Positions 10,640-47,906 of a DNA stretch of 51,485 bases are shown here, piece by piece. Below the pieces are notes generated by a model. It saw nothing but the letters and a program-made list of their open reading frames with translations, ran no database searches and had not been told where the DNA came from. Numbering within the stretch: the stretch's first letter is position 1; each line of letters starts with the position of its first letter. The stretch comes from Candidatus Levybacteria bacterium RIFCSPLOWO2_12_FULL_39_17 (GTDB lineage Bacteria; Patescibacteriota; Microgenomatia; Levybacterales; GWA1-39-11), in assembly GCA_001782675.1 (NCBI GenBank), contig MFPJ01000005.1:1-51485 (forward strand), read 5' to 3'. A program made the position numbers and the translations under genes.

Positions 10640-11059
10640 ATGCCAACACTTAATCAATTAATAAAAAAAGGAAGAAAAACAAAAACAAAGAAAGTTAAAG
10701 CAACGGCTTTGCTTTCGGTTTTTAATGCAAAGATTCGAAAATACACTCAAGTTCCTTCCCCACAAAAACGCGGGGTAGTTACTTTAGTGCGAACAATGAC
10801 ACCAAAAAAGCCTAACTCCGCACTTCGCAAGGTCGCAAGGATCAAGCTTTCAAATAGAGAAGAGGTAACTGCTTACATTCAGGGAGTGGGTCACAATCTG
10901 GCAGAGCACGGGATAGTTTTGGTTCGTGGCGGAAGGGTTAAGGATTTACCGGGTGTTAAATATCATTTGGTTCGAGGAAAATTCGATCTGGCAGGCGTTG
11001 AAAACCGAAAAACTTCAAGAAGCAAATACGGAACTAAGCGTCAAGGAGGAGAAGCATAA
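10640..11059 (+). CDS. rpsL: 30S ribosomal protein S12
   Basis: [12 protein letters not shown] start, [33 protein letters not shown]; the provided ORF starts upstream at 10595 but MPTLNQ is the canonical start. Confidence 0.98.
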
Positions 11060-11541
11060 TGGCTAGAGGTAAAAAAAACATTACAAAAAAGAGAGAAATT
11101 CAGCCGGACCCTATTTATGGGAATATTCTGGTTGCAAAATTTATAAACAGGCTTATGCATAACGGCAAAAAAACTGTTGCGCAAAAAGTAGTTTATTCTG
11201 CCTTTGATTTGCTCAAGCAGCAGGGTCATAATCCTGTTTCTTTGTTTGAAAAAGCTATTGAAACAATAGGGCCAAGGCAGGAAGTTAAAGCCAGAAGAAT
11301 TGGAGGGGCAGCTTATCAAGTGCCTTCAGAAGTGAGAGGGGCAAGAAGGACAGCCCTTGCGATCCGCTGGATTCTTGAGGCAACCTCAAAAAGGTCAAAC
11401 GCAGAATATAAAACTTTTTCTCAAAAATTAGCAGCGGAGCTCTTGGACGCCTCACAAAACTTGGGCGAGGCAATAAAGAAAAGGGATATTGCGCACCGAA
11501 TGGCAGAAGCCAACAAAGCCTTCGCCCACTTTAGGTGGTAA
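11059..11541 (+). CDS. rpsG: 30S ribosomal protein S7
   Basis: S7 motifs, IGPRQEVKARRIGGAAYQVPSEV; C-terminus MAEANKAFAHFRW. Confidence 0.98.
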   Translation: MARGKKNITKKREIQPDPIYGNILVAKFINRLMHNGKKTVAQKVVYSAFDLLKQQGHNPVSLFEKAIETIGPRQEVKARRIGGAAYQVPSEVRGARRTALAIRWILEATSKRSNAEYKTFSQKLAAELLDASQNLGEAIKKRDIAHRMAEANKAFAHFRW

Positions 11542-11547
11542 CTCCTA

Positions 11548-11576
11548 TTGCTTCTTTTTAATTCAGGATTTATAAT
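11548..11576 (+). promoter_or_regulatory. Promoter upstream of LigT-like gene
   Basis: TTGCTT (11548-11553), 17 nt, TATAAT (11571-11576); ATG at 11588. Confidence 0.6.
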
Positions 11577-11587
11577 CTGTCTGATTC

Positions 11588-12181
11588 ATGACCGTTGCTA
11601 GAGCCGAATCAAAAGAAAGAGGATTATATTCACCTTCTTATATAGTAGTATCAGTTTTCCCACCAGAAATTAATAGAAGAATAGAGGAAATTCGAAATAA
11701 ATATAATTTACGCATTCCTGCGAAAATTAAACCGGTGGGACCTCATCTTACGCTAAAATCGCCCTTTAACCCAACAGTGCCATTTGAGGGATTGGTGCAA
11801 AAGCTTAATGAAGCTGCAGATAGGGCAACAGCTTTTCCCATAGAACTTAGTGGTATTAATCGTTTTGGGAGAAAGAGAAGTCTTGTGTATATTTCTGTTA
11901 CAGACTCAACATCTCCACATATCGCTGATTTACATAGAAATATTGTAGGAGTTTTAAGCGGAATGACTGAAGATAGAGGAAGCAACAAATTTGAACTGGG
12001 TAGCTTTACTCCCCATGTAACTATAGGAGAGGGTAAGCCATCTGAAGACGTCTGGGAGAAGTTATTGAAAGAAGGAATAAATTTTCAATTAACATTAAAT
12101 TCTTTTTCTCTGTATTACGCCCCAAGAGTAGATGGCCCCTGGATACTCAGAAAAGTTTTTATGTTGGGAGACACAGGTTAA
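11588..12181 (+). CDS. 2'-5' RNA ligase superfamily (LigT/2H phosphoesterase-like) protein
   Basis: Two HxTx-type motifs: PHLTLKSPF and PHVTIGEG. Confidence 0.8.
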   Translation: MTVARAESKERGLYSPSYIVVSVFPPEINRRIEEIRNKYNLRIPAKIKPVGPHLTLKSPFNPTVPFEGLVQKLNEAADRATAFPIELSGINRFGRKRSLVYISVTDSTSPHIADLHRNIVGVLSGMTEDRGSNKFELGSFTPHVTIGEGKPSEDVWEKLLKEGINFQLTLNSFSLYYAPRVDGPWILRKVFMLGDTG

Positions 12182-12188
12182 CATTATA

Positions 12189-12224
12189 GAAGTCAACAAA
12201 GCCCTTGCCCGCTTCCGCTGGTAG
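12189..12224 (+). pseudogene. Displaced 3' tail of rpsG (EVNKALARFRW-stop)
   Basis: gaa gtc aac aaa gcc ctt gcc cgc ttc cgc tgg tag encodes EVNKALARFRW*; the intact rpsG ends EANKAFAHFRW*. Confidence 0.7.
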
Positions 12225-12314
12225 CACTATTTACTGTTCCTTTTACTACTTCCTCAGATTTACTGATCACTGATTTACTGTTGCACTGCTTTACTGTTTT
12301 ACTGTATATTACTT

Positions 12315-12371
12315 CTGTGGAAAATATAAGGTGGTTGGGGCACGCAAACCTAGATTTGTCTTTCTCCACAG
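12315..12371. other. Hairpin of unknown function
   Basis: CTGTGGA (12315-12321) pairs with TCCACAG (12365-12371); nested AGGT/ACCT inside. Confidence 0.4.
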
Positions 12372-12400
12372 CAGAGTAGTTAAATAATAAAGAATAATTT

Positions 12401-12440
12401 CGTGCTTAGTCTAATGATTCAGACTATTAGACTAGATTCA
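12401..12440. repeat. 40-bp direct repeat copy 1 (contains inverted repeat), at 3' end of TrpR-like gene
   Basis: cgtgcttagtctaatgattcagactattagactagattca; 37/40 identical to copy at 12885-12924. Confidence 0.9.
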
Positions 12441-12884
12441 TTTTCTACTTCCTCCTAATGGATGTTTTGGGGGTTTTGGTGGTTCGAGTCCCGGCCATTT
12501 TCTATAAGCTGAATAAGAAAATGATGATGCAACCTCCTTAATCATATCTTTAAGAAATGCTCCGAGCTCCTCATCTCTAATTACTCTTTTGACAACCATC
12601 TCGTACCCTTCGCTTCGGTAGTTGAGAACGCCATTCACGCGAGCAATAGTCTCTTGAGATACTTTAAGAACGTCTTTTATGGTTTCATAGTTATAGCCTT
12701 TGGCTAAAAGCAGAGCGATTCCAAGTCTTTTGGCGAGCATTGTTTTTTCAGTTGGCCCAAGGAGGCTGAATAAAAATTTCTCGATATCCGAAGGATTTCT
12801 GATATTAGCGAGTGCTTTGAAAAACAAGTCGAACAATTTTTTCTGTGTGTCTTTTGGTAAATATCTTCTTGAAACCTGTGCCAT
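12438..12884 (-). CDS. TrpR/YerC-YecD-like DNA-binding protein
   Basis: LLGPTEKTMLAKRLGIALLLAKGYNYETIKDVLKVSQETIARVNGVL, typical TrpR-fold HTH. Confidence 0.82.
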   Translation of the reverse strand: MAQVSRRYLPKDTQKKLFDLFFKALANIRNPSDIEKFLFSLLGPTEKTMLAKRLGIALLLAKGYNYETIKDVLKVSQETIARVNGVLNYRSEGYEMVVKRVIRDEELGAFLKDMIKEVASSFSYSAYRKWPGLEPPKPPKHPLGGSRK

Positions 12885-12924
12885 CGTGCCTAGTCTAATG
12901 ATTCAGATCATTAGACTAGATTCA
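12885..12924. repeat. 40-bp direct repeat copy 2, abutting start codon of TrpR-like gene
   Basis: cgtgcctagtctaatgattcagatcattagactagattca; TAGTCTAATGA-ttcaga-TCATTAGACTA perfect 11-bp inverted repeat. Confidence 0.92.
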
Positions 12925-12949
12925 GTATAAAGAGCTAGAGCTATAATTG

Positions 12950-14140
12950 TCAATGATTTTCTTGTTTCTTTTCTAAAATTCTTTCGAGGGTTAAGCAATA
13001 GAGGGCGGCGGCGATTCGGATGTTTTCAAGTTTTACATATTCATTTGCATTGTGGGCGCTATGAGAACCATCATCAAGGGAGTGGACAAGCGTTTCGATT
13101 TCAGCAAAGGACAAGGGCTTTGCGTCTGTGATTCCACCCATAGTTCCGGATCTCATTTTTAAGCCAAGTTCTCTTGATGAATCCATAAAAGCTTTAATTA
13201 AAATAGAATCCGATTCGGTTAAATGAGGATCAAGCGAAAGAGTTTCTTCAATCTCAATTTTTACACCTTTTTTCTTTTGTTCCAAAGTTAATTCTTTCAT
13301 CGCTTTTTTAATCAGATCAAGAATTTGTTTTTTCGTTACGCCCAAAGGAATCCTAATGTCAATTTCCGCTTCCGCATATGCGGGAACTATATTTACAGCA
13401 TGACCTCCCTTTATGGTTCCAATGTTTTTAGTAATACCATCAAATGCTTCATGAAAAGATAATTCCTCAAATCTTATTTCAGTAAATTTGTGAAGAGCTT
13501 TAATTAGATTTTCAACAGCATTAATTCCTCTTTCTGGTGCAGATCCATGAGCTTGCTTACCAAAGCTTTTAAATCTAAGACGAATGACCCCTTTTTCACC
13601 AGTTATGATTTTATCAATAAAACCTCCGTCAGGGACAATTGCATAATCCACCCTGAATCCTTTTTTCAAAAGGTAATGGCTCCCCAAATCTGATCCGGTT
13701 TCTTCATCAGCGAAACCGACAAGATAAATAGTCCCCTTAAATTTTTTATTCCGGTCAAGAAATGTTCTTATTGCGGCCCATGAAGATGCATAATTTCCTT
13801 TGCTATCAACAGAACCTCGAGCGTATAGTTTCCCCCCTTTGATTACCGGTTTAAACGGATCTGTTTTCCATCCGTCTCCCGCAGGAACAGTATCCAGGTG
13901 GGGGAAAAAACCAATCGAAGGAAATCCTTCTCCAATTTTTATAATAAAATTCGCTCTTCCTTTTGCTCCCTGAACTATTTCAAGTTTTCCGTCTATTTTT
14001 TTTGCCGCCTCTACAATTATTGGTTTGAGAACAATTTCCTTTCCGGGAGGATTAACAGTTTTTATTGAAACCAGTTTCTTTAAAAGTTCAACTGCCTCAT
14101 CCAAGGGAACTTTGTTTAGAATATTCTTATTTGTCTTCAT
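12950..14140 (-). CDS. M20 family metallopeptidase (ArgE/DapE/Acy1-like)
   Basis: GFFPHLDTVPAGDGWKTDPF, RGSVDSKGN, ADEETGSDLGS motifs. Confidence 0.9.
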   Translation of the reverse strand: MKTNKNILNKVPLDEAVELLKKLVSIKTVNPPGKEIVLKPIIVEAAKKIDGKLEIVQGAKGRANFIIKIGEGFPSIGFFPHLDTVPAGDGWKTDPFKPVIKGGKLYARGSVDSKGNYASSWAAIRTFLDRNKKFKGTIYLVGFADEETGSDLGSHYLLKKGFRVDYAIVPDGGFIDKIITGEKGVIRLRFKSFGKQAHGSAPERGINAVENLIKALHKFTEIRFEELSFHEAFDGITKNIGTIKGGHAVNIVPAYAEAEIDIRIPLGVTKKQILDLIKKAMKELTLEQKKKGVKIEIEETLSLDPHLTESDSILIKAFMDSSRELGLKMRSGTMGGITDAKPLSFAEIETLVHSLDDGSHSAHNANEYVKLENIRIAAALYCLTLERILEKKQENH

Positions 14141-14226
14141 TCCCGCAAATTATACCAGAAATTATTTTAATTTTTTGACTTCTTACCCTTCTTTTCCTAA
14201 ATTTTTAAACAATTTGTGCTATATTA

Positions 14227-14895
14227 GTGGGAATGGAAAATGTGACATGGTTTGGGCATGCGAGTTTTGCAATAACCGACAGTTTAAATGGCAATCGAAT
14301 ATATTTTATTGATCCGTTCGAACTCCCTTCAGACAATTCGGATAAGGCAGATTTAATATTCGTAACTCACGCTCACTATGATCATTTGTCACAAGGAGAT
14401 ATAAATTCGATTTTAAAAGACAACACTATAGTTGTTGCCACTCCGGATTCTCTGTCGACTCTCAAAATTAAGGACGAAAGTAAATTTCCGGTTGCGCCAA
14501 ACAATTCATATGATGTCAAAGGAACAAAATTTGAGACAATCCCCGCATATAATATTCGCGAAGATCGATTAAACTTTCATCCCAAATCAAACAATTGGGT
14601 AGGCTACATTTTATTTGTCAATAATCAAAAAATATACCATGCCGGAGATACGGATTTTATTCCGGAAATGAAAACTTTAAGTTCGAAAAATCTTGATATT
14701 GCCATGCTTCCCATGGGCGGGACTTATACAATGGGAGTCGAGGAAACAATTGATGCCGCCAACGCGATCAAGGCCAAAATTACAATTCCCATGCATTACA
14801 AAAGAATTCTTGAGGATAAATACAAAGAAGCAGAAGAAAGATTTAAAAAAGAAGTAAAAAATTCAGAAGTCGTAATTCTTGAGGAAGTCTCATAA
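14227..14895 (+). CDS. Metallo-beta-lactamase-fold hydrolase (UPF0173-like)
   Basis: WFGHASF, VTHAHYDHLS, YHAGDTDFI, PMHYK; ATG likely 14233. Confidence 0.87.
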   Translation: MGMENVTWFGHASFAITDSLNGNRIYFIDPFELPSDNSDKADLIFVTHAHYDHLSQGDINSILKDNTIVVATPDSLSTLKIKDESKFPVAPNNSYDVKGTKFETIPAYNIREDRLNFHPKSNNWVGYILFVNNQKIYHAGDTDFIPEMKTLSSKNLDIAMLPMGGTYTMGVEETIDAANAIKAKITIPMHYKRILEDKYKEAEERFKKEVKNSEVVILEEVS

Positions 14896-15026
14896 ATAAA
14901 AATTAAGCACGAAGAACCAAGCATCAAACAACAAATAAAATAGAAATTATAAATTTTAATAATTAAATATTGGAGCTTAAGTATTATTTGGAACTTGAGA
15001 TTTATGATTTGGATTTTAAATTGAAG

Positions 15027-15683
15027 TTATTCGACTTCAATTTTTATCATTTTGTCGCCGGCTGCAATTTGTTTTACTATTTCCATGCCATTAGTGACTT
15101 TCCCAAAAATGGTGTAATTGTGGGGGAGAGGATTATCGGCAAGCATGATGAAAAATTGACTGCCGTTGGTGTTTGGCCCGCGGTTTGCCATTGCAACAAC
15201 CCCTTCAACATAACCCTCTTTATAACTTTCTGTTTCAGGATTTAATTCATCTTCAAATGTAAAACCATAAATTGATTTTCCACCTGTACCATTTCCATTT
15301 GGATCTCCCCCCTGAATAACAAACCCGGGTTCCATCCTATGGAAAGTAAGATTATTGTAATATCCTCGTTTTGCAAGAGTCGCAAAATTCATAACTGTTT
15401 TTGGAGCATCTTCGGGATATAACTTTATTTCAATATCGCCTTTTTCGGTTTTGATCGCGGCTTTATTTGCCGAAACTCGATCTTTTTCGGAAAGGGTCGG
15501 TTGCCGAGTCGGCTGATCCAGTGCAATAGTAGGATTTGGTGTTGGTGTCAAAAAATTTCCTGCTGTTTGTCCTTCTTGTTTATTTTGGTTTGTCATAATG
15601 TAAATCCCTAAAAAACCTAATAAAACTATTACTCCAAAAATAACAGCCGCTTTCATTTTATATGATTTTAGTTTAAGAGCCAA
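15027..15683 (-). CDS. Cyclophilin-type peptidyl-prolyl cis-trans isomerase, membrane anchored
   Basis: FHRMEPGFVIQGGDPNGNGTGG, MANRGPNTNGSQFFIML; N-terminal TM. Confidence 0.95.
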   Translation of the reverse strand: MALKLKSYKMKAAVIFGVIVLLGFLGIYIMTNQNKQEGQTAGNFLTPTPNPTIALDQPTRQPTLSEKDRVSANKAAIKTEKGDIEIKLYPEDAPKTVMNFATLAKRGYYNNLTFHRMEPGFVIQGGDPNGNGTGGKSIYGFTFEDELNPETESYKEGYVEGVVAMANRGPNTNGSQFFIMLADNPLPHNYTIFGKVTNGMEIVKQIAAGDKMIKIEVE

Positions 15684-15763
15684 TAAATTTCAATATAGTC
15701 TTTGGCTTAAAAAGAGCAGGTGTCAAGCTAATCCACCTCCCAGGTGTCTAGGAGCCTAAGGAT

Positions 15764-16855
15764 TTAAACTTCGATTATTTGTTTTGGTGAGCTTGTGAGT
15801 TGTTCGAGGCCATTTTTGGTTAGCAAGAAATCATCTTCGATGCGAACGCCGCCAAAACCTGGAATGTAAATCCCCGGTTCTATTGTAAAAACATTTCCTT
15901 CAACAAGTTTATCTTTCGATTTAGGTGATAGCCGTGGTTCTTCGTGTATTTCAATTCCAATCCCATGCCCCAGGCCGTGAGATATAGGGTCGAACCCTTT
16001 TGAAACAATATGCTTATTTGCAACTCTTACCACCTCGAAGGAGTCATGGCTTCGTAAACTCAGCCTGCCACCATTCGAGGTGTTGATATAGTCGATTACT
16101 TTCTGTTGAGCTGTACTGACTGTTTCGTATATTTTGTGAGCTTTGCTTTTCGCGTTTTTCGCGAGTAATGTTCGCGTCATGTCAGAGCAATAGCCATTCA
16201 CTTTCGCGCCGAAATCTAAAAGGACAAATTGGTCATCTTTGCTTAATTTTTTGTTTGAAGTTTTATGATGTGGAATTGCTGCATTTGCCCCGAATGCAAC
16301 AATGGTATCGAAAGATAGCTCGCCACCATTTTCTTTTATAAATTTGTCAATCCTCCAGGCGATTTCTTTCTCTGTTATATCTATTCTCATATTCTTAAGA
16401 ACATGAGAATAAGTTTTGTCTGTCAATTTACATGCGGGGCGAATATTTTTTATTTCTTGCGAATCTTTGACTGAGCGTAATTTTTCAATTAACCAATCGG
16501 TTAAATAATAATTTAATGATGTCTCTTTTTTGAACCTAATATATTCGGCAAAAGTTAAATTTTGCTCAAATCCGATACTTTTTACATTAGAATTTTTTAT
16601 TATTTTGAATAGTTCGGTATGTAATAAAGTTTTAACTCCTTTCGGAACTATGTTTTTTACTACTTCAATATATCTTCTATCTGTAAAAAGATATGCGGTT
16701 CGATTTGTGATAAACATATATGCGTATCTTTCTTCAGGAGTAAAATAGTCAACGCCTGTTAAATAAAGAATATTCGGAACCGACGACACAAGAAACCCCT
16801 CGATTTTTTTAGATTTCAATAAATTTTGCAGATTTTTCAGCCTCAATTCATGCAT
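15764..16855 (-). CDS. M24 family Xaa-Pro aminopeptidase
   Basis: [59 protein letters not shown]; start taken at [10 protein letters not shown] (16855). Confidence 0.93.
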
Positions 16856-16903
16856 AGAAGCAATTATAGCATGGCGAGTATAAAAAAATATCGACAAATA
16901 CAA

Positions 16904-16932
16904 TTGCACCTCTCTTGCATTTTTGGTAAAAT
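16904..16932 (+). promoter_or_regulatory. Promoter upstream of fusA
   Basis: TTGCAC (16904-16909), 17 nt, TAAAAT (16927-16932). Confidence 0.6.
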
Positions 16933-16981
16933 GTCTAAGGTTTCGAATTTCGAGCTTCGAATTTCGATTTTTTTTATTATT

Positions 16982-19096
16982 ATGGCAGATACAATTTCAA
17001 GAAATGTACCATTGGACAAGATTCGCAATATCGGAATTATCGCGCATATTGACGCGGGGAAAACCACGACAACCGAGCGAATTCTTTACTACACCGGAAA
17101 ATCCTACAAGATTGGTGAGGTTCACGAGGGAGCTGCTGTCATGGATTGGATGGATCAAGAGAGAGAACGGGGAATTACAATAGTTTCGGCTGCCACAACC
17201 ACTTTTTGGGGCGACCACAGAATAAATATTATCGATACTCCCGGACATGTTGATTTTACGGCCGAAGTTGAAAGATCTCTTCGTGTTTTGGATGGGGCAG
17301 TAACGGTCCTTGATGCCGAGGAAGGAGTTCAGTCTCAATCGGAGACTGTTTGGAGACAAGCTGATAAATACAATGTCCCCAGAATTTGTTTTATTAACAA
17401 AATGGATAAACTCGGGGCAGATTTTGAAAAAACAATTCAGTCAATTATAAACAAACTCGGAGCAAATCCTATTGTTTTAGGGTTTCCAATTGGGAGCGAG
17501 CAGGATTTTCGCGGAATTTATCAAATCCTCGAGCAAAAAAGTTATATTTGGTCCGGGGAAGAGTTAGGAGCAAAATTTGATGTTAGAGATGAAATTCCTG
17601 CAGGAATGGAAGAAACAATTAAAAAGTATAGAGAGCAATTAATTGAGAAAATTGCGGAAACGGACGATGTTTTGCTTGATAAATATCTTAAGGGGGAGGC
17701 AATTCCAGACGAGGAATTAAAGAAAGCGCTTCGCGCCGCAGTCATTGCCTATAAAGTTGTTCCTATTTTTGCAGGTTCATCTCTTCGCAACAAAGGTGTT
17801 CAGCCTCTTTTGGACGCGGTTGTTGATTATCTTCCATCGCCGGTTGATTTAGACGAGGTTAAAGGAATAAACCCAAAAACCGGAGCCGAGGAAGTAAGAA
17901 AACTTGTCCCCGAAGAATCGTTTACGGGTTTTGCTTTTAAAGTCCAAATTGATCCTCATGTTGGAAAGATCACTTATGTTCGAGTGTATTCGGGACAAAT
18001 TAATTCCGGATCTTATGCCTATAACAGCACGAAAGATATAAGAGAGAGAGCGGGAAGGCTTCTTCTGATGCATGCGAACCAGAGAGAAGAGATTAAAGAA
18101 GCCTATTCTGGTGAAATCGTGGCTGTTGTAGGTTTGAAAGATACCTCAACAGGAGATACTTTGTGTGATGAATCAAAGCCGATAATTCTTGAAAAGATTT
18201 CATTTCCCGAGCCTGTTATTTCTTTGGCAATTGAGCCAAAAACAAAGTCTGATCAGGAAAAACTCGGTTTGGCTCTCAAGAAACTGATGGACGAAGACCC
18301 TACATTTTCAGTTAAGATGGATCACGAGACAGGACAAACAATAATTTCCGGTGTTGGAGAGCTTCAGCTTGAAGTAAAAGTTGAGACAATGAAAAGGGAG
18401 TTTGGGGTTCAAGCAAATGTTGGAGCACCTCAAGTGGCGTATAAAGAAACTATATCCCAAGCGGCTCAAGCTGAAGGTAAATACATAAGGCAAACGGGAG
18501 GGCGCGGACAATACGGACACTGTTTTCTGAGAATCGCGCCGCTCGGCCGTGGTGAGGGCTTTGAATTCGTGAATGCAATTAAAGGAGGATCAATACCTTC
18601 CGAATTTATCCCGTCAGTTGAAAAAGGGGTGAGAGAAACACTTGAGAAAGGTGTGCTTCTGGGGTATCCTGTTACGGATTTGAAAGTCACGCTTTACGAT
18701 GGAACATATCATGATGTTGATTCATCCGACATAGCTTTCAAAATTGCAGGATCCATGGCGTTTCAGAGTGCTGCAAAAAAAGCAGGTCTTAAACTTCTTG
18801 AGCCCATTATGAAGGTTGAGGTAACAACTCCTGAAGAATTTATGGGTACTGTTATTGGAGACCTTTCTTCAAAAAGAGCACAAATTTTGGGGACTGAAGA
18901 GCGGGGAAATGTCCGAATAATCCTGGCAAGTGTTCCATTGTCCGAGCTTTCAGGATATGCTACTACACTGCGTTCTATGTCTCAAGGCCGGGCGATTCCA
19001 TATGTTGAGCCTTCTCACTACGAAGAAGTTCCCAACAATATAGTTCAGGCGATGCTTGCAAAATCCACTTTCACCGGCCGCATCACCGCCCAATAA
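16982..19096 (+). CDS. fusA: Elongation factor G
   Basis: [52 protein letters not shown]; start at [11 protein letters not shown] rather than upstream ORF start 16826. Confidence 0.98.
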
Positions 19097-19114
19097 TTTT
19101 GATATAATTTAATA

Positions 19115-19801
19115 ATGCAGAATTTGGATGATTTAGCTAATAAAATTTCCTCAACCCCCCTTTTTTTAAGGCTAAAAAATGTTGTTGAAAACGGTACGGG
19201 TTGGCATGACCATGAAGATGTTTTCTCGCATTCTGTAAAGACTGCAAATATTGCCAAAAAAGAGCGGGATGGAGAATTCGTAACCAACCCGGAATCAAAA
19301 GAGCTTTTTACAAAATGGATGGATGAAGATGTTTTTGGGATGAAAAGGAAAGATGTTGCAGTAATTATTGCTCTTCTTCATGACTGCGGAAAAATCTTAA
19401 GTTTTAGAGAAAACGGAAATGTTTCAACTCTAATAATTAAAAGGCCATTGGATTTAAGTCAGACGTCATGTCCCGGACATGAATTTTGGGGCGGAGAAAT
19501 TGTAGTTCGCGAAATTTTAAAAGATTCAGGTTTGGATGAAAAACTTATTGAATACATTGCAAAAGTAATAAAGCAACACGGTTTATTTAGCGCAGAATAT
19601 TATGTTGGAAAAGAAAAGTGGTCGGAATCAGAGCTCCTGAATGATGTTAAGTCAAAAGCAGAAGGCTTGCGCAAAGAATCTTTGTTTAATATGTATTGTG
19701 ATGGATATACTGCTCCTGCATTTTCTCAAGGAAAGGCAAAAGTAAAAGAATTATTTAATATGCCTCCATTTTACGTTACACGAGAATATTTCATTCCATG
19801 A
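19115..19801 (+). CDS. HD-domain protein (putative phosphohydrolase)
   Basis: GWHDHEDVFSHSVKTA, IIALLHDCGKIL. Confidence 0.75.
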   Translation: MQNLDDLANKISSTPLFLRLKNVVENGTGWHDHEDVFSHSVKTANIAKKERDGEFVTNPESKELFTKWMDEDVFGMKRKDVAVIIALLHDCGKILSFRENGNVSTLIIKRPLDLSQTSCPGHEFWGGEIVVREILKDSGLDEKLIEYIAKVIKQHGLFSAEYYVGKEKWSESELLNDVKSKAEGLRKESLFNMYCDGYTAPAFSQGKAKVKELFNMPPFYVTREYFIP

Positions 19802-20487: not shown

Positions 20488-20524
20488 ACTTTATCTTAAG
20501 AGGTCAAACTGGTAGAATTACAAC

Positions 20525-36765: not shown

Positions 36766-36825
36766 TATATTGATTATAGATTATAGATTAATTGAGTTCG
36801 AAAAATAATAAATAATAAATAATAA

Positions 36826-38210: not shown

Positions 38211-38215
38211 TAAGT

Positions 38216-38671: not shown

Positions 38672-38677
38672 AAAATT

Positions 38678-39109
38678 ATGACGCTAAAATTAGATAAAAT
38701 AACAGAGAGAAAACTTAAGAGGGTTGGACGGGGACATGGATCCGGGCGAGGAAAAACATCAGGGCGAGGAACAAAGGGTCAAAAATCCCGAAGAAAAATC
38801 AGCCTGTCTTTTGAAGGAGGAGCTCTTCCTTTAATCAAAAGGCTCCCTTTTTTAAGAGGTCATGGGAAAAACAGATCATTAAAGCCGGGTATATTTATTG
38901 TTAATGTGGGCAAACTGAATAAACTTCCATCAAAAACAGTTGTTGATGTTGAGTCTCTAATTAAGCATTCCTTGATTTCAAAGGATGCAATCGGGGCACC
39001 CGTCAAAATCTTGGGCGTTGGTGATTTAAAGGTTGCCTTGACGGTAAAGCTTCCTGTTTCAAAAAGCGCAAAGGAAAAAATTGAGCGTGCCGGTGGAGCC
39101 ATAGCCTAG
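38678..39109 (+). CDS. rplO: 50S ribosomal protein L15
   Basis: RVGRGHGSGRGKTSGRGTKGQKSR. Confidence 0.96.
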   Translation: MTLKLDKITERKLKRVGRGHGSGRGKTSGRGTKGQKSRRKISLSFEGGALPLIKRLPFLRGHGKNRSLKPGIFIVNVGKLNKLPSKTVVDVESLIKHSLISKDAIGAPVKILGVGDLKVALTVKLPVSKSAKEKIERAGGAIA

Positions 39110-39112
39110 GAT

Positions 39113-40399
39113 ATGAACAAGGTTTTGAGTATTTTTAAGAATAGCATCAAAGACCGCGATACTCGACGAAAAATTTTAGTAGTTCTATTTATTTTTCTAA
39201 TCTTCAGATTTTTTGCTCATATTCCGGTTGCGGGAGTGAACATTGCTCAGCTAAAATCTCTGTTTGCTCAAAATCAACTCCTGGGACTTCTTGATATTTT
39301 TTCAGGAGGCACCCTGTCAAACTTCTCGATTCTGGCAATTGGTCTTGGTCCTTATATCTATGCCTCAATAGTCCTGCAGCTTTTAACAATGGTTTATCCT
39401 AAGCTTGAAGCATTACAAAAGGAAGGAGAATATGGAAGACAAAAAATAAATCAATACACAAGATTCTTAACCATTCCCTTATCTATTGTTCAGGCCTTGG
39501 GAATGTATGCCTTACTTCGTAATCAGCAAATCATTACATCCTTGCCTCCGGTTGAAATTTTATCATTTATTACGACCATGACGGCAGGAACAATATTTAT
39601 TATGTGGCTTGGAGAACTTATATCGGAACAAGGGATTGGAAATGGAATTTCTCTTCTGATATTTGCAGGAATTGTTGGCAGAATTCCAATTGCAACTTTT
39701 CAAATGTTGTCCACTCTCAACAGTCAGGATGTTTTGAATTTCGGAATTTTTGCAGCGCTTGGAATTGTAGTTATTGCATCAATTGTTTTTGTTAATGAAG
39801 CTATTCGAAAAGTTCCCATCTTTTATGCCAAAAGAGTTAGGGGATCAAGGATGTATGGGGGGCAATCCACACATATTCCATTAAAGATTAATCAAGCAGG
39901 AGTTATCCCTATAATTTTTGCTGTCTCAATCGTTCTTTTGCCTTCACTTCTTGCCAACTATTTTGTCGCAAACCCTAATAAAACCTTAGCAGCAATTGGA
40001 ACCTTTTTAGCCCAAAATTTTGATCCCAATAGTATTTTATATAACCTTGTTTATTTCCTCTTGGTAGTTGGATTTACTTATTTTTATACAGCCGTAATAT
40101 TTAACCCTCAAAAGGTCTCAGAGGATATTCAAAAATATGGAGGTTTTGTACCTGGAATAAGGCCCGGAAAGCCGACGACTTCCCTTCTTAATTACATAAT
40201 AACAAGAATCACTCTGCCGGGCGCGCTTTTCCTGGGACTCGTCGCGATTCTTCCAAGCGTTGTCACGGCAATGACCGGAATTACTGCTGTTTTGGTTGGT
40301 GGGACCAGTATACTCATAGTTGTTTCGGTTGTGATTGAGACTATTAAAATTCTTGAAGTTCAAATGGTTACTCGTTCTTACGAAAGGTTTTCAAGATAG
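39113..40399 (+). CDS. secY: Preprotein translocase subunit SecY
   Basis: Ten-TM architecture; [37 protein letters not shown]. Confidence 0.97.
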
Positions 40400-40950
40400 T
40401 GAAAATTGTACTTATTGGAATTCAGGGTTCGGGAAAATCAACGCAAGGGAATCTGCTTGCGGAAAAGCTTAAGGTTCCCTATCTTTCTACAGGTCATATA
40501 TTTCGCGAAATTGCGAAAGAACATACTCCCATGGGCCGTTATATAAAAGAAATAATGAATTCGGGTTATCTTATTCCGGACGAGAAAACCCTTGAGATCG
40601 TCAGCGATTATCTTTCCCGGCCTGAATATCAAAAGGGATATATTCTTGACGGATTCCCAAGAACTAAAGTTCAGGCAGAGTCCTTTAAAAACGGGATAGA
40701 TGCGGTTTTATATATAAAAGTTCTTGATGAAGAAGCCATAAGGCGTTTATCTTTAAGAAGAGATAACCGTGAGGATGAAGCTCCCCGCGCTTTAAAAAAG
40801 AGGATTGAGTCGTTCCATAAGTTCACAATACCTGTTCTTGAGTATTACAAAGAAAAAGGAAAACTTCATGAGATCAATGGGGAGCGAACCATTGAAGAAA
40901 TTCACCGGGATATTTGCGGTATTCTAGGTGTTGCGTCAAATGGACAATAA
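40399..40950 (+). CDS. adk: Adenylate kinase
   Basis: GTG start overlapping secY stop; GIQGSGKSTQGNLL, ILDGFPRT. Confidence 0.93.
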   Translation: MKIVLIGIQGSGKSTQGNLLAEKLKVPYLSTGHIFREIAKEHTPMGRYIKEIMNSGYLIPDEKTLEIVSDYLSRPEYQKGYILDGFPRTKVQAESFKNGIDAVLYIKVLDEEAIRRLSLRRDNREDEAPRALKKRIESFHKFTIPVLEYYKEKGKLHEINGERTIEEIHRDICGILGVASNGQ

Positions 40951-41719
40951 GAAAATTCTAGGAATGACCACGGCAGGAAGAATTTTAGGTGAAGTCCTTG
41001 AGGAATTAATTGCTTATACCGCCCCCGGAGTAACAGAAATTGAAATAGACGATTTGGCCGAAAGATTAATCAGAAAAAAAGGAGGCAAACCCGGCTTCAA
41101 AAAAGTCCCGGGGTATCATCATGCAATTTGTGTTTCGACTAATAATGTTGTCGTTCACGGTATTCCCTCAAAAAGGAAGCTTTCCGAAAGGGACATAATT
41201 GGTATTGACTGCGGAGTGTTTTATGAGGGCTACCATACCGATATGGCTGAGACCCGAAGGGTCTCAACAACTGACAAAGGACAACTGACAACTGACAGTT
41301 CGGCGGATAAGTTTTTGGTGGTGGGAAAGAAGGCGCTGTTTGCAGGAATTAGAGAAGCAAGAGCTGGGAATCGGGTTGGTCATATTTCGCAAGCTATACA
41401 AAATATTGTTGAGAGCGCAGGGTATTCAGTTGTTCGGTCTCTTGTGGGGCATGGGGTGGGAAAAAGCCTTCATGAGGAGCCTGAAATTCCCGGTTATCTT
41501 GCGGCAAAGATTGAAAAAACTCCCCTTTTAGTTCCGGGTATGACTATTGCTGTTGAAGTCATTTACAATATGGGAAAGCCTGATGTTGTTTATGAGAGGA
41601 ACGATGATTGGACCATTTCAACAGAGGACGAGAGTCTTTCGGGACTCTTTGAGCGAACAATTCTAATAACCGAAAAAAACCCAAGGCTTTTGACTCGCCT
41701 AAAGAGTGATAAAATATAG
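40940..41719 (+). CDS. map: Methionine aminopeptidase type I
   Basis: GYHHAICVSTNNVVVHGIP, IGIDCGVFYEGYHTDMAET, VGHGVGKSLHEEPEIPG; ATG at 40940. Confidence 0.95.
   Translation: MDNKKILGMTTAGRILGEVLEELIAYTAPGVTEIEIDDLAERLIRKKGGKPGFKKVPGYHHAICVSTNNVVVHGIPSKRKLSERDIIGIDCGVFYEGYHTDMAETRRVSTTDKGQLTTDSSADKFLVVGKKALFAGIREARAGNRVGHISQAIQNIVESAGYSVVRSLVGHGVGKSLHEEPEIPGYLAAKIEKTPLLVPGMTIAVEVIYNMGKPDVVYERNDDWTISTEDESLSGLFERTILITEKNPRLLTRLKSDKI
41248..41266. repeat. Palindrome within map coding sequence
   Basis: TGAGACCC-gaa-GGGTCTCA, followed by (aactgac)-type words. Confidence 0.85.
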
Positions 41720-41727
41720 CTCTTGGC

Positions 41728-41756
41728 TTGTAAACCTGGGCTTGATCTGCTAAAAT
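41728..41756 (+). promoter_or_regulatory. Promoter upstream of infA
   Basis: TTGTAA (41728-41733), 17 nt, TAAAAT (41751-41756). Confidence 0.6.
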
Positions 41757-41777
41757 AGCATGAATTATAGGGGAGAT

Positions 41778-41996
41778 ATGGCGCATGAGGGTGCAATTGA
41801 AATTGAGGGAATTGTAAAAGAGGTTTTACCAAATACTTTATTTAGGGTAGAAATTGAGGGAGGAAAAGTTATCTTATGTCACTTATCAGGTAAAATGAGA
41901 ATTCATTTCATAAAAATACTGCCGGGTGACAAAGTCAGGATAGAAATGACCCCCTATGACCGGGAGAGAGGTAGAATAACCTACAGGATCAAATAG
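41778..41996 (+). CDS. infA: Translation initiation factor IF-1
   Basis: [38 protein letters not shown] opens at 41760 but promoter position favours ATG 41778. Confidence 0.93.
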
Positions 41997-42055
41997 CCCC
42001 GGCTTACAGAACATTTGCGATTTAGCCCCGATTAAATCGGGTCAATTATTTGAAT

Positions 42056-42472
42056 ATGAGAGTTGTTGGAGTAAACATACCGGACGAAAAAAGAGTTGAC
42101 ATTGCTTTGTCCTACATTTATGGAATAGGAAGGAGCAATGTTTGTTTAGTGCTTAAGAAAGCGAATATTGATGGCGCGAGAAGATTAAATACTCTTTCCG
42201 AGGAGGAGCTTGGCAGGATCCAAAAAGCTCTTGAACCGTACAAAATCGAAGGAGATCTTAGGGCTGATGTTGTAGGAAATATCAAGCGACTTAAAGAAAT
42301 CAGTGCTTATCGGGGCATAAGGCATGCAAGGAACCTTCCTGTTCGAGGGCAGCGAACCCGTTCCAATGCCAGAACCAAAAGAGGAAAGAGAGTAACAATT
42401 GGAGCTATTAGAAAAGAAATTGCTCAAAGAATGGGTATAGTAGCAAAACAAGATGGCAAAAGCAAAAGTTAG
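42056..42472 (+). CDS. rpsM: 30S ribosomal protein S13
   Basis: [47 protein letters not shown]. Confidence 0.97.
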
Positions 42473-42845
42473 CGCAAAAACAAAGAAAAAGACAATTTCA
42501 CTTGAATCGGGAAGGATTTATGTTTCTACAACATTTAATAATACAATTGTAACCATTACGAATGAAAAGGGAGATGCTGTTTCATGGTCAAGTGCCGGAA
42601 ACATAGGATTTAAGGGGACACGAAAAAGCACCCCATATGCGGCAACCCAGGCAGTGGATGAAGCAATTAAAAAGGTAAGGGATTTGGGATTAAAAAATGT
42701 TGAAGTTTTCATTAAAGGCCCCGGGGTTGGAAGAGACGCCGCTTTGCGCGCAATAAGAAATTCCGGCCTTTCAATTTCCATGATTGCTGATATTACGCCC
42801 ATTCCTCACAATGGGCCGAGGATGAAGAAGAAAAGAAGAGTGTAA
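42453..42845 (+). CDS. rpsK: 30S ribosomal protein S11
   Basis: [39 protein letters not shown]. Confidence 0.98.
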
Positions 42846-42934
42846 CATTATTTATTATTTATAATTTATAATTTATGATTGACTATTTAGATTCAAAAAT
42901 AATAAATAATATATAATAAATAATAAATAAATGT
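42846..42934. repeat. AT-rich word-like inverted repeat spacer rpsK-rpsD
   Basis: ttatttattatttataatttataattt ... aaaataataaataatatataataaataataaataa. Confidence 0.65.
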
Positions 42935-43534
42935 ATGGCTAGGTATACAGGTCCAAAACACAAATTAGCAAGGCGAGAAGGAATTAATATATTGGGAAAA
43001 ACTTCGCAGTCTCTTGACAGGAGACTTAATGTGGTTCCCGGATCACACGCAAAGAGAAGAACCAGGAAGCTTTCCGAGTTTGGAGTCCAATTACGCGAAA
43101 AACAGAAATTGAAGAGAATATATGGTTTACTTGAGAGACAATTCAGAAAGTATGTCAAAGAGGCTCAGAGGAAAAAAATAAATACGGAGGATGCGCTAAT
43201 TCAACTTCTTGAAACAAGACTTGATAATGTTGTCTACAGGTTTGGATTGGGCAAAAGCAGAGCGCACGCAAGGCAACTGGTATCTCATAGACACATCCTG
43301 GTGAACGGGAAAAAAATAAATATACCTTCTTATGCCGTGAGGCGCGGGGATTTAATATCTATTGAACCAAAGCTTCAAGGGGGGGAGCTAAAAGCAAGAC
43401 TTCAAGAAATAAAAGAAATTCCTGTTTTTCTTGAGAAAAAGGATCTGGGAGGGAAACTTTTAAACCTCCCAACAAAAGAAGATGTGTCAAATCCTGTGAA
43501 TTACCAGTTAGTTATTGAATTTTACTCTCGGTAA
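42935..43534 (+). CDS. rpsD: 30S ribosomal protein S4
   Basis: MARYTGPKHKLARREGIN, ARQLVSHRHILVNGKKINIPSY. Confidence 0.97.
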   Translation: MARYTGPKHKLARREGINILGKTSQSLDRRLNVVPGSHAKRRTRKLSEFGVQLREKQKLKRIYGLLERQFRKYVKEAQRKKINTEDALIQLLETRLDNVVYRFGLGKSRAHARQLVSHRHILVNGKKINIPSYAVRRGDLISIEPKLQGGELKARLQEIKEIPVFLEKKDLGGKLLNLPTKEDVSNPVNYQLVIEFYSR

Positions 43535-43565
43535 TGATAAAATAATTTTTTGATCTTGAGGCAAA

Positions 43566-44489
43566 ATGATAAATCCAACATTTAAAACAATAGAAGAGAA
43601 AAAAGAGCAAGGTTACACCCGTTTTGTAATTGAACCGCTTGAGCCCGGATTCGGACACACTTTAGGTGTTGCCTTGCGCAGGCTTCTCCTAACATGCATT
43701 GAAGGAGCAGCAGTTACATCTGTTAAGATAGATAGTGTTCGTCATCTTTTCTCTACTCTCCAAGGACTTAAAGAAGATGTGATCGGTCTTGTCTTAAACA
43801 TCAAAACACTCAGGGTAAAACTTGCGGAAGGCAAAGATGAGGCAAGGTTATCATTATCCGTAAGCGGACCGGGTGAAATTAAAGCTTCAAAAATTGAGGA
43901 ATCGGACGGTGTGGAAATAATTGATCCGGATCATTATTTGGGGTCGCTTTCCGACAAAAAATCAAAGCTTAATATGGAAATGACTGTGGAGCGTGGAGCA
44001 GGATATTCTCTTGCCGAGGATCGAAAAATTTCAACCGTAGGAGTAATTCCTATTGACGCAATTTTTTCTCCAATACTCAGGGTGAATTATAAAATTGAAC
44101 AGACTCGTGTTGGAAGACAGACAAATTTTGACAAACTTATTCTTGAAATTTGGACGGATGGAACTATTGAACCCAAAGAGGCATTGGACGAGGCAAGTAA
44201 AATTCTGGTTGTATACTTTCATCAGATTTATGAACCGAATGAAACATCTGAGGTTTCCAAAATTGCTTCTGCGGGTTCTCTTCCAAACGATGTTCTCAAA
44301 ATGACTATTGATGAATTGGATCTTCCAACAAGAATCTATAATAGTCTTAGAAATGCGGGAATTGAAACAGTTGGGGAAATGCTTAATGTTCCAAGAAAAG
44401 ACTTAATGAACTACAGAAATCTTGGGGCGAAATCACTTTCAATAATTGAAGAAAGTTTGAAAGAAAGAGGCATTACTCTTTCGCTTTAA
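43566..44489 (+). CDS. rpoA: DNA-directed RNA polymerase subunit alpha
   Basis: FVIEPLEPGFGHTLGVALRRLLL; C-terminal RPOL alpha HhH domain. Confidence 0.98.
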   Translation: MINPTFKTIEEKKEQGYTRFVIEPLEPGFGHTLGVALRRLLLTCIEGAAVTSVKIDSVRHLFSTLQGLKEDVIGLVLNIKTLRVKLAEGKDEARLSLSVSGPGEIKASKIEESDGVEIIDPDHYLGSLSDKKSKLNMEMTVERGAGYSLAEDRKISTVGVIPIDAIFSPILRVNYKIEQTRVGRQTNFDKLILEIWTDGTIEPKEALDEASKILVVYFHQIYEPNETSEVSKIASAGSLPNDVLKMTIDELDLPTRIYNSLRNAGIETVGEMLNVPRKDLMNYRNLGAKSLSIIEESLKERGITLSL

Positions 44490-44526
44490 AGTTAACTCTT
44501 TAAAATTACCCCGTTAGAAGCAACTT

Positions 44527-44994
44527 ATGAGAAAAAGAATTTTCGGAAGAAGATTTAGGCGAGACACAAATGAAAGAAAGGCGTTATTTAAAAGCTTGAT
44601 GAACTCTTTGATTCTTCATGGCAAGATTAAGACAACCGAGGCAAAAGCCAAAGCAATAAAAGGAGAGGTGGAAAAAATCGTGACCCGGGCAAAAGCCGGC
44701 GAGGCCGCGAGAAGAATCATTACTGCAAAACTTGGAGACACGCGGGCAGTGGAAAAGGTAATTGGTGAAATTGCTCCTAAATTTGCGGAGCGCCCCGGAG
44801 GTTACACGAGGCTTTTAAAGCTTGGGTCAAGAGTGAAGGATGGAGCTTCCGTGGCACTTTTAACTTGGGTTGAAGAGGTGCTACCGACCCCTCTTAAGGA
44901 ACCTAAGAGGAACACAAAGAAAAAGACAACGAAACCGCAAGAAAAACCAAAAAAAACCCAAGCAAAAAAAGAAAAAAAATCAGTCAAAAAATAA
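44527..44994 (+). CDS. rplQ: 50S ribosomal protein L17 with Lys-rich tail
   Basis: RRDTNERKALFKSLMNSLILHGKIKTTEAKAK. Confidence 0.95.
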   Translation: MRKRIFGRRFRRDTNERKALFKSLMNSLILHGKIKTTEAKAKAIKGEVEKIVTRAKAGEAARRIITAKLGDTRAVEKVIGEIAPKFAERPGGYTRLLKLGSRVKDGASVALLTWVEEVLPTPLKEPKRNTKKKTTKPQEKPKKTQAKKEKKSVKK

Positions 44995-44997
44995 ATT

Positions 44998-45429
44998 ATG
45001 CAAACAGCAACACAACCAACAAAAGTATCGCAAATTAAAAGAGACTGGCACTTAATTGATGTAAAAGGTAAAATTCTCGGAAGAGTTTCAACTGAAATTG
45101 CCCGGCTTCTTATGGGAAAAAATAAGCCTTATTTTGTCAAGAATCTTGATTGCGGGGATTATGTGGTTGTAATAAATGCAAAAGAGATAAGTATAACCGG
45201 TAAAAAAGAGAAAGATAAAATTTACACAAGTTATTCGGGATATCCGGGAGGTTTAAGAAAAAGAACATTAGCAGAGCTTCGTCATAACAAACCGGAGGAA
45301 ATTGTAAGGCATACAGTTTCAGGAATGCTTCCAAAGAATAAATTAAGAAATTCTTTGCTCAAAAAATTATTTGTTTTTAGAGGGGAAGAACATAAATACG
45401 AAGATAAATTTCAGAAGGTAGGGGTATAG
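44998..45429 (+). CDS. rplM: 50S ribosomal protein L13
   Basis: WHLIDVKGKILGRVSTEIARLLMGKNKPYFV. Confidence 0.96.
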   Translation: MQTATQPTKVSQIKRDWHLIDVKGKILGRVSTEIARLLMGKNKPYFVKNLDCGDYVVVINAKEISITGKKEKDKIYTSYSGYPGGLRKRTLAELRHNKPEEIVRHTVSGMLPKNKLRNSLLKKLFVFRGEEHKYEDKFQKVGV

Positions 45430-45433
45430 GGTT

Positions 45434-45880
45434 ATGACAAGAAATCAAACAGTTAAATCATATGTTTTTGCAGTAGGAAGAAGAAGAGAGGCTGTGGCTC
45501 GCGTAAGACTCTATAATATGGGCAAAGCAGTAGTTAATGGAGCCGAGCTTAAAAAAGGAGAGATAGTTGTAAACAGTAAGCCCATTCAGGAATATTTTAG
45601 ATTCGGACCATACGCCCCAGTTTATAATAAATTCATACTTAATACTGGAATAAGTGGAAAATATCCGTTAAGTATAAAAGTTGAAGGTGGAGGAATAGCA
45701 GGACAATTAGACGCCGCCATTCTTGGGATGGCACGCGCGCTTGATAAGTTGGATCGCGAGAAGTATCACAAAATTCTTCGAGATAACGGATATTTAACTC
45801 GTGATCCTAGAACTAGAGAACGCCGAAAAGTCGGCATGGGCGGCAAAGCGAGACGGAAAAAACAAAGTCCGAAACGGTAA
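45434..45880 (+). CDS. rpsI: 30S ribosomal protein S9
   Basis: [43 protein letters not shown]. Confidence 0.98.
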   Translation: MTRNQTVKSYVFAVGRRREAVARVRLYNMGKAVVNGAELKKGEIVVNSKPIQEYFRFGPYAPVYNKFILNTGISGKYPLSIKVEGGGIAGQLDAAILGMARALDKLDREKYHKILRDNGYLTRDPRTRERRKVGMGGKARRKKQSPKR

Positions 45881-46065
45881 TTCCCTCAAAGCCCCGTCAA
45901 TCGCCTCCTTGCCGTGAACGCCTGCCCGCCTCTGGCGGGAATAGAACCCAAGAGGCGAGAGGTAAGATTGTTTGGGGGTAAGGAGAAAGAAACAATCACT
46001 CAAACGATAATACTTAAATGTATAAACTACAGGGGGAAGAAATAAAAGATGCCTTTATTTTAACT

Positions 46066-46578
46066 TTATGCTAGATCTAGTGGGTAAAGAGTTCGTCCTC
46101 CTCCAATACTATAAATGGGTTTCGCATCGGAATATATCGATGTGTGTCTAATGCTAAAACCTCCAGTTTTCTTATAAAATTCTATTAATTGTGTATTGCT
46201 TGGAGGAAAAATTCTCTGCTTAATCTCTTCATCGGAAAGTAGAGTTGCTGTACCCCTATTAAAGGGAAAATCGGCATTATTACCTACTGTACTCACATTT
46301 ATACCATGAAAGCTTGTGGAAATCATGCTGTTTTCTATTTCATCTGGGGACAGTTTTGTATCTAGTACCCACGCTTTATAATAATCATTGCTCTTCACAT
46401 CCTCGCTGCATCTCGCTCGCACTGCAACCACGAGTCCATCAGAAGTCATCCCATATATGTATTGCGTTCCTACTTCCTGGTTAAACTTATCAGAAAATCT
46501 TCTTAACACATCTTTTACGCCTGGTTTGGAAAGATATTCATGAATTTTTGGCCTAGCTTCTTCTTCTTCTTCAACCAT
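46066..46578 (-). CDS. Hypothetical protein; frame continues upstream to an in-frame TAA at 46744-46746
   Basis: 170-aa ORF; reading upstream in the same frame stays open (SQEPQESTEYASLVQEAKDARKVAINARIEEGDSRRVLDLEKIAERTEITARERK-M). Confidence 0.5.
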   Translation of the reverse strand: MVEEEEEARPKIHEYLSKPGVKDVLRRFSDKFNQEVGTQYIYGMTSDGLVVAVRARCSEDVKSNDYYKAWVLDTKLSPDEIENSMISTSFHGINVSTVGNNADFPFNRGTATLLSDEEIKQRIFPPSNTQLIEFYKKTGGFSIRHTSIYSDAKPIYSIGGGRTLYPLDLA

Positions 46579-46743
46579 TTTTCTTTCTCGAGCTGTTATT
46601 TCTGTTCTTTCGGCTATTTTTTCTAAGTCTAAAACTCTCCTACTGTCCCCTTCTTCTATACGCGCGTTTATAGCTACTTTTCTCGCATCTTTAGCTTCTT
46701 GAACTAGGGAAGCATACTCCGTAGATTCTTGAGGCTCTTGTGA

Positions 46744-47385
46744 TTAAAGTGTAAGTTCTTGATGTTTTTGTGATTCAGGTATTGGCGGTTCAGGCTCTTG
46801 TGATTCAGAAGAAAAATCTAGTTTTCCAGTAAAAGGTCGACTTTTGACATATTGATCAAATGCAGGTGATAAAGGATCCCCGCGATGAATAGCGGTAAAA
46901 TCAGCTGGATTCTTTCGTATGCCATGTGCGGCTATATCATGATACACCTTCTCAATATCTTCAAGGAGGGTAAGGTTTTCTCTTTCTGACATTCTTTCGA
47001 CACGACGCGTACGACTCTCTGCGAATTTATGATATGGGTCTGCATTGAGATAATTGTCTAAAAGCTTAACATTACCGTATGAATTATCCCCTTGAATTAC
47101 ATAAACCATTTTTATTTTTCTGTCAGCTTCTGTACCAATCGGAGGTTCCAATAGATACGTTAAGCTTCCTAAGCCATACGATTCATTAACAGCTACCATT
47201 CTTAGAGAATATGCTAAGGGGTCATTGCTTGATTCGTCGGACTCAATTCGGTGGCTTAATTCGTCTGATATAGACCTTACTGTTTCTCTTGCGGGAGCTT
47301 CATTACCTTCCTGCAAAGCCTCTTTAGCAGCTTGTATGTTGTCTCTGATGGGGCCTGTAGGAGTTCCTTCACCAACTTCTGACAT
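46744..47385 (-). CDS. Hypothetical protein
   Basis: 213-aa ORF, same frame as 46066-46578 ORF. Confidence 0.5.
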   Translation of the reverse strand: MSEVGEGTPTGPIRDNIQAAKEALQEGNEAPARETVRSISDELSHRIESDESSNDPLAYSLRMVAVNESYGLGSLTYLLEPPIGTEADRKIKMVYVIQGDNSYGNVKLLDNYLNADPYHKFAESRTRRVERMSERENLTLLEDIEKVYHDIAAHGIRKNPADFTAIHRGDPLSPAFDQYVKSRPFTGKLDFSSESQEPEPPIPESQKHQELTL

Positions 47386-47494
47386 ATATCTATTACAATA
47401 TATCAGATTTTTTCTGCAAAGGTCAACTGACTTAAGAAGACCACATCTTTACTTCAATGTTCACTCCTATGATAATCTCAAAAATTCTTTTGTA

Positions 47495-47805
47495 ATACGC
47501 GGTATCTCATGCTGAAAGTATTGTTTTATCTCTTTCCGTGTTGCCTTAAAAAAAATCTCTGGCATGTGGAGAAAGCATTTAGGATTGCTAAATCAGATTT
47601 AGAAGCACGACCAATCTTTCATCAGAAACGAGACAGCATAAAAGCACATATTCCGTTTTTATCAGTTTATGTGTGGCAAAAGCAATTGAGCTTAAGACTG
47701 GATGCTCCATCCAAAAAGTCAAAGACCTCATTTGGTCTATCCTGGACATTGAGCTTGTTGACCCGTTGACAATACAACCTTTGTCAAGTACTCAATGTGG
47801 ATAAG
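47495..47805 (+). pseudogene. Frameshifted C-terminal remnant of a DDE (IS4/IS1634-like) transposase
   Basis: LWHVEKAFRIAKSDLEARPIFHQKRDSIKAHI, then after a frame change AIELKTGCSIQKVKDLIWSILDIEL. Confidence 0.75.
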
Positions 47806-47837
47806 TATTTGAAAAAGGCTAAAGACGTACTAAAAAA

Positions 47838-47906
47838 GTGAAGTCAGGAAGAAAAGTAGGAATGGGCGGCAAGGCAAGAAGGAAGAAACAATCTCCAAAG
47901 CGCTAA
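47838..47906 (+). pseudogene. Displaced 3' tail of rpsI ([20 protein letters not shown]-stop)
   Basis: gtg aag tca gga aga aaa gta gga atg ggc ggc aag gca aga agg aag aaa caa tct cca aag cgc taa; protein identical to rpsI C-terminus over [18 protein letters not shown] but many codons differ. Confidence 0.9.

Follow-up and report, generated by a model that had tools for sequence, protein, structure and literature searches.

The contig MFPJ01000005.1 of Candidatus Levybacteria bacterium RIFCSPLOWO2_12_FULL_39_17 (assembly GCA_001782675.1), analysed here in its entirety of 51,485 nt and hereafter termed the window, carries within 51 kb three genes that are each accompanied by a second copy of one of their own ends, which we refer to as an echo: the ribosomal protein genes rpsG and rpsI, and an MBL-fold gene, the last affected at its 5' end. 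For the two ribosomal protein genes, the initial annotation had described an intact gene, followed by accessory cargo and then by an orphan tail of the same gene in the same orientation, and both direct repeats turned up in our analysis without prior assumption; a further rpsI tail and the MBL-fold case are additions to that description.

At the first locus, an intact rpsG (S7; 11059..11541, + strand; PF00177, E 5.8e-55) closes with what we read as a replacement tail: its last 8 codons are those of G040, a genome from another family, and its last 10–12 are nearly identical to them, whereas the genus-mates differ. The gene is followed by a LigT/2'-5' RNA ligase-like cargo gene (11588..12181, +; PF13563, E 1.8e-23) and then by the stranded native tail, EVNKALARFRW plus stop (12189..12224, +), a 36-nt direct repeat with about 80% nucleotide identity to the rpsG end and a sequence that is starting to change (NKALARFRW). 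Beyond this orphan lies the native rpsG–MBL intergenic DNA (12225..12316, +), which is conserved after rpsG in the genus-mate G002, and the match to G002 extends into the start of the MBL-fold gene. The LigT-like gene is sporadic, occurring in 7 of the 147 genomes searched (the window's own counted) and in none of the genus-mates; a donor genome with this gene directly after rpsG was sought and found in 0 of 147 genomes.

Immediately past the intergenic DNA comes the native start of the MBL-fold gene, now stranded (VENIRWLGHA; 12317..12346, +); it aligns in the same context with the G002 start VENIRWFGHAS, and the intact gene (14227..14895, +; PF13483) begins differently, with MENVTWFGHAS. This arrangement is the mirror image of the tail echoes, in that a native-like start is stranded, a TrpR-like and an M20 gene are interposed (12350–14226), and the intact gene follows; because the window holds this gene-start echo, either gene end is usable. 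The cargo consists of a TrpR-like repressor gene (12438..12884, −; PF01371, E 2e-15) and an M20 peptidase gene (12950..14140, −; PF01546) between the stranded head and the intact gene; the M20 gene was not found near rpsG/MBL in G002 and G003. Direct repeats of 41 nt, 93% identical and containing a palindrome (AGTCTAATGATTCAGA..TTAGACT), lie on both sides of the TrpR-like gene (12400–12440 and 12884–12924). A TrpR-like homolog with 60% identity and similar flanking palindromes is located within an rpsG echo in G011 (L093).

The rpsI locus is more elaborate. Here the intact gene with its replacement tail (S9; 45434..45880, +; PF00380, E 4.8e-27) runs directly into a folded spacer element of the kind termed type 2 below (45881..45980, +), which was recognised from its predicted fold and its local alignment to Curtissbacteria rpsG spacers. 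A second rpsI tail copy, RRKKQSLKR plus stop (45981..46010, +), was recovered by the unbiased tail scan 100 nt past rpsI, and is followed by a 440-codon open frame as cargo (46066..47385, −), broken by one TAA (46744–46746) and without a Pfam match to either half. The stranded native tail (47850..47906, +), recognised as a direct repeat and by synteny with the genus-mates G001 and G002, abuts recX (47903..48412, −; PF21982, synteny), the native neighbour at the original rpsI end: in both genus-mates, recX and then recA begin about 8 bp past rpsI, and the orphan tail of the window adjoins recX likewise. Over its 57 nt, or 19 codons, this orphan shows 11 synonymous and 0 nonsynonymous changes. 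Just before it, at 47509–47850, lie frame fragments resembling a DDE transposase end (WHVEKAFRIAKSDLEARPIFHQKRDSIKAH); an insertion sequence (IS) transposase relic was considered for this stretch and set aside, as it was without Pfam support. A general role of rpsI as a hotspot was likewise dismissed, with a second copy found only in the window's own genome among 72 matching genomes.

In both tail cases, the orphan ends sit at syntenic native flanks—recX at rpsI and the DNA that follows rpsG in G002—so that each insert separates a gene body from its native end, and the gene has therefore been re-completed with another end. Synteny thus bears out the earlier proposal that cargo was placed at gene ends with the end regenerated. 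In codons unused for detection, the copies differ by 27 synonymous versus 6 nonsynonymous changes (p about 1e-11), and echo tails score 28–42, as true tails do, against at most −8 for unrelated (non-echo) downstream DNA. Synonymous-biased divergence and true-tail scores together disfavour an old neutral duplicate, and the sequences point to copies that are probably ends with separate coding histories. Echo length varies among genes from 18 to 66 nt, with no echo longer than 66 nt, and the two copies differ at most synonymous sites and share no core beyond amino-acid constraint. Within the gene bodies, the distance of the window rpsG to G002 rises from 0.237 to 0.340 over the last 48 codons while that between G001 and G002 stays at 0.216/0.194, and over its last 28 codons rpsI comes closest to other genera. 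A longer foreign segment gained no significant support from either the approximately unbiased (AU) test (p 0.77 for rpsG, where the genus clade was not rejected, and 0.22 for rpsI) or a permutation test of the breakpoint (p 0.14 for rpsG and 0.26 for rpsI); we therefore treat a long foreign segment within the gene body as a trend and not as a result.

The layout recurs well beyond the window. Microgenomatia genomes were examined as sampled stretches, and across 1185 ORFs (window included; 1.14 Mb) we searched within 5 kb on the same strand for copies of the nine terminal residues and the stop. The scan recovered 20 echoes matching at least 7 of 9 residues, compared with 0 for shuffled tails and 1 in antisense; this total includes duplicates from overlapping tiles, additional copies at a single gene and loci fetched for an rpsG echo. 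When the count is confined to the window and to tiles free of loci fetched in that way, there are three echoes in the window, five (four distinct) in G122, two (one a paralog) in G087 and two in G126. No echo was found among 491 control genes from other Patescibacteria classes and E. coli. The initial annotation had called for such a systematic search against a shuffled control, and its outcome is the one anticipated there. Its emphasis on ribosomal protein genes, by contrast, proved too narrow: echoes occur at rpsG, rpsI, rpsO, rpsJ, rpoC, lepA (in two genomes) and genes for a UvrD-like helicase, a phosphoribosyltransferase and an EntD-like protein, and less convincingly at groES, under a detection that favours conserved tails; tRNA genes, the RNase P RNA gene rnpB and the gene start in the window are affected as well. 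In G126 (L245 12223–13246, −), 1.5 kb upstream, a short orphan frame contains a further possible gene-start echo (RKSYKIATL, 9/9).

For rpsG, a degenerate pattern of the last nine codons matched 179 of 373 class genomes. Two or three clustered same-strand tails were present in 13 of these 179, and additionally in G066, with 2 stray matches in the reversed control; read by eye, the Curtissbacteria family carries an rpsG echo at 8 of 14 loci. A scan for tandem rpsG tails in 84,980 species gave 58 loci, the majority of which were chance matches within genes of other phyla. Genuine arrays were confined to Microgenomatia (Curtissbacteria, Shapirobacteria, Woykebacteria and one other) under a pattern that fixes the HFRW ending and therefore covers other phyla only partly. 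One such array, in G087 (L070 4853–5640), comprises three successive rpsG tails with two different folded spacers, and the DNA past its last tail matches native intergenic DNA of G111. The rpsG echo inserts reach at most about 4 kb in the 373 genomes, and inserts overall range from about 30 bp to 4 kb. A phage origin was considered and rejected, since viral contigs contained neither an rpsG tail nor the type-1 hairpin described next.

Most short spacers between a gene end and its echo fold. The better-defined family, type 1, has the form CYTTGC-stem-loop-stem'-TAAAG (TTGCGATAG...CTATCTAAA), with a core of TTGC...TAAA and a stem that surrounds an invariant GC/TA internal loop. In an alignment of 13 rows with hand-trimmed arms and a fixed loop, 6 of 10 stem pairs show substitutions in both partners (13 cells), a level reached in 0 of 500 shuffles, with a covariation score of 0.323 versus 0.115 for shuffled alignments. 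Type 1 occurs at 22 places in 20 of the 373 class genomes, at most two per genome (reversed-pattern control, 0); under a slightly stricter pattern, the roughly 310 genomes covered from other classes of Patescibacteria lacked it. The places include rpsG, rpsO, tRNA and rnpB ends, some could not be assigned to a target, and in many the target end is repeated on the far side. Within the 1.14 Mb, all strong type-1 hairpins stand at echoes and none at non-echo gene ends. Type-1 inserts stop precisely at the base of the hairpin (TCTAA|A). The element lies in the same orientation as protein genes and in the opposite orientation to tRNA and rnpB genes, an arrangement more in keeping with a DNA site than with an RNA; a known structured RNA was also considered, and no credible Rfam match was obtained for the window inserts or the rpsG spacers. 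In G260 (L315 1243–1581), the RNase P RNA contains a type-1 hairpin close to its 3' end, bounded by a direct repeat of 13–15 nt, and in RNA genes the element may interrupt its target instead of flanking it. The second family, type 2, rests on about 20–38 nt of homology between the window rpsI spacer and the Curtissbacteria rpsG spacers of G087 and G754 (0 of 500 shuffles as high), and this shared element joins the rpsI insert of the window to rpsG inserts of another family of bacteria.

Neither the window inserts nor those echo inserts that were examined showed a recombinase, integrase or mobilisation gene, in agreement with the initial annotation. Among 28 genomes tested, no echo-specific integrase was apparent. 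Most of these genomes encode, beside a XerC/D-like recombinase, a conserved Xer-like recombinase of about 292 aa in which NDLRHT replaces the customary HxLRH motif (e.g., L183, L184, L186, L187).

The observations to be explained thus comprise the way the loci are built, the placement of orphan ends at native positions, the synonymous divergence, the recurrence, a folded element with compensatory changes, and an element family shared between loci. We favour, with a probability of roughly one half, an explanation in which these are gene-end displacement insertions of DNA that was acquired horizontally and brings its own gene end, with homology to the gene end as the guide and, where a folded element is involved, with a putative structure-specific activity acting in trans. 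Foreign DNA bearing its own version of a conserved gene end would enter the resident gene a little way in from its terminus, sometimes bringing cargo and, in many lineages, a small folded element; the foreign end would re-complete the gene, and the resident end would be pushed outward as an orphan. The foreign end would have arrived by horizontal transfer, and its homology to the resident end would steer the insertion, which the variable echo length and the conserved targets favour. Where a folded element is present, a putative structure-specific enzyme could act in trans at the hairpin base, much as if an integron cassette were using a host gene end; what speaks for such an activity is the conserved structure and the exactness of the junction at the base of the hairpin. 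A bolder formulation, in which Microgenomatia would possess an integron-like system of gene-end cassettes that lacks a fixed platform—a putative structure-specific recombinase acting in trans on folded sites, with or without cargo, each carrying a spare gene end, with essential genes as attachment sites—strikes us as unlikely at present.

Several observations weigh against the favoured explanation. A flanking direct repeat reaches p<0.01 at only 7 of the 22 type-1 places and an inverted-arm match reaches p<0.05 at only 3 of them, and at rnpB the element is embedded in the RNA, close to the terminus, and not placed outside it. Within the window itself, the type-1 hairpin is absent and the rpsG insert has no recognisable folded element. 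Tyrosine recombinases are encoded in all 28 genomes tested, with or without an rpsG echo, and most of these genomes have two or more; none of the enzymes was shown to be IntI. In addition, the synonymous-bias test on rpsG alone is biased by the search pattern, and the suggested foreign ancestry of the replacement end draws on codon divergence and nearest-neighbour identity, with no significant breakpoint.

Among the alternatives, homology-facilitated illegitimate recombination (HFIR) after DNA uptake, close to the natural-transformation route that the initial annotation had suggested, is the foremost one, possible yet doubtful. It would have the gene body anchor a linear DNA whose other end joins illegitimately within the last 20–70 nt of the resident gene, stranding the old end, and only conserved genes would offer enough homology across genera. 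The affected genes are indeed among the most conserved, echo length is variable, the terminal codons of rpsG drift from the genus-mates and those of rpsI approach other genera, and the layout resembles the displaced gene ends of type VI secretion system (T6SS) arrays in V. cholerae, for which HFIR was proposed (PMC5361080). However, neither the AU nor the permutation test backs the breakpoint that this route predicts, echoes never exceed 66 nt, and strong type-1 hairpins occur, in the 1.14 Mb, only at echoes; random fragment ends would vary, whereas type-1 inserts stop at one exact position.

Rather less probable is a descent from integrase-borne elements, whether integrative and conjugative elements (ICEs), integrative and mobilizable elements (IMEs), phages or integrase-less cis-mobilizable elements (CIMEs), in which the gene-side copy would be attL, the orphan attR, and the integrase lost. 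The ends of tRNA and ribosomal protein genes serve as attachment sites, and restored gene ends with orphan copies are the expected anatomy of such elements. In streptococci, ICEs and IMEs integrate at the 3' end of rpsI (PMC4701971, PMC5090054, PMC5357655). Against this stand the small size of the rpsG echo inserts and the lack of a recombinase in those examined, the lack of a fixed echo length or of an overlap core, the viral contigs without an rpsG tail, and the presence of the same small hairpin at unrelated target genes. Local tandem duplication of a gene end, a decaying paralog or mis-assembly of mixed strains is the least credible explanation and in our view very improbable: nearby direct repeats can arise by slippage and most of the genomes are probably metagenome-assembled, but amino acids are kept while synonymous sites differ, only 18–66 nt are duplicated with no paralog body, native flank lies outside the orphan end, and the layout recurs in several genes and in the 820-kb single-contig genome G122. 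The initial annotation had named ordinary paralog decay as what would overturn it; a tail present alone, at a syntenic native position and with mostly synonymous changes, speaks otherwise.

Patescibacteria have reduced genomes, and little is known of how they acquire genes. What we describe looks like an unrecognised way of acquiring DNA in Microgenomatia, in which the stranded gene end, together with the folded element, is a diagnostic scar by which gene capture can be counted in thousands of genomes. Should a structure-specific recombinase be responsible, host gene ends would be recombination sites in a new and categorically different use; if HFIR is, the echoes would be unusually frequent evidence of illegitimate capture at conserved genes between genera.

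Comparison with known systems places these insertions between several of them. Rickettsia palindromic elements and the repetitive extragenic palindromic (REP) and miniature inverted-repeat transposable element (MITE)-like repeats are small palindromes at or in protein and RNA genes, usually present in many copies per genome, whereas type 1 occurs at most twice; to our knowledge, none of these brings a second copy of the target gene end. The attC site of integrons folds into a conserved structure that has an unpaired loop inside the stem and a variable tip, and its cassettes, with or without a gene, form arrays. Here too, the folded site has such a loop and tip and is kept in structure more than in sequence, units come with or without a gene, and arrays form; unlike in integrons, however, the alignments show no GTTRRRY or RYYYAAC boxes, there is no attI–intI platform, host gene ends are the site, and the outer stem partly matches the target gene. 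With ICEs, IMEs and CIMEs, the insertions share the restored gene end, the displaced copy on the far side and rpsI as a target (PMC4701971, PMC5090054), but they differ in the lack of any integrase or relaxase seen, in their size of about 30 bp–4 kb, in the variable echo and in the use of unrelated targets with one hairpin family. A further parallel is C-terminal displacement, with immunity-gene arrays, in Rhs, contact-dependent inhibition (CDI) and T6SS loci, where a new end and accessory DNA likewise come to lie upstream of the orphaned old end and arrays build up by repetition (PMC5361080). In those loci, secretion-system genes exchange variable toxin modules at their ends; the ends that change places in our case are conserved and belong to housekeeping protein and RNA genes, and they are accompanied by small folded elements and mostly lack cargo. 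The process works like Rhs/T6SS C-terminal displacement and partly resembles an integron cassette, while lacking features that define integrons (core boxes and platform) and others that define ICEs, IMEs and CIMEs (integrase and fixed core).

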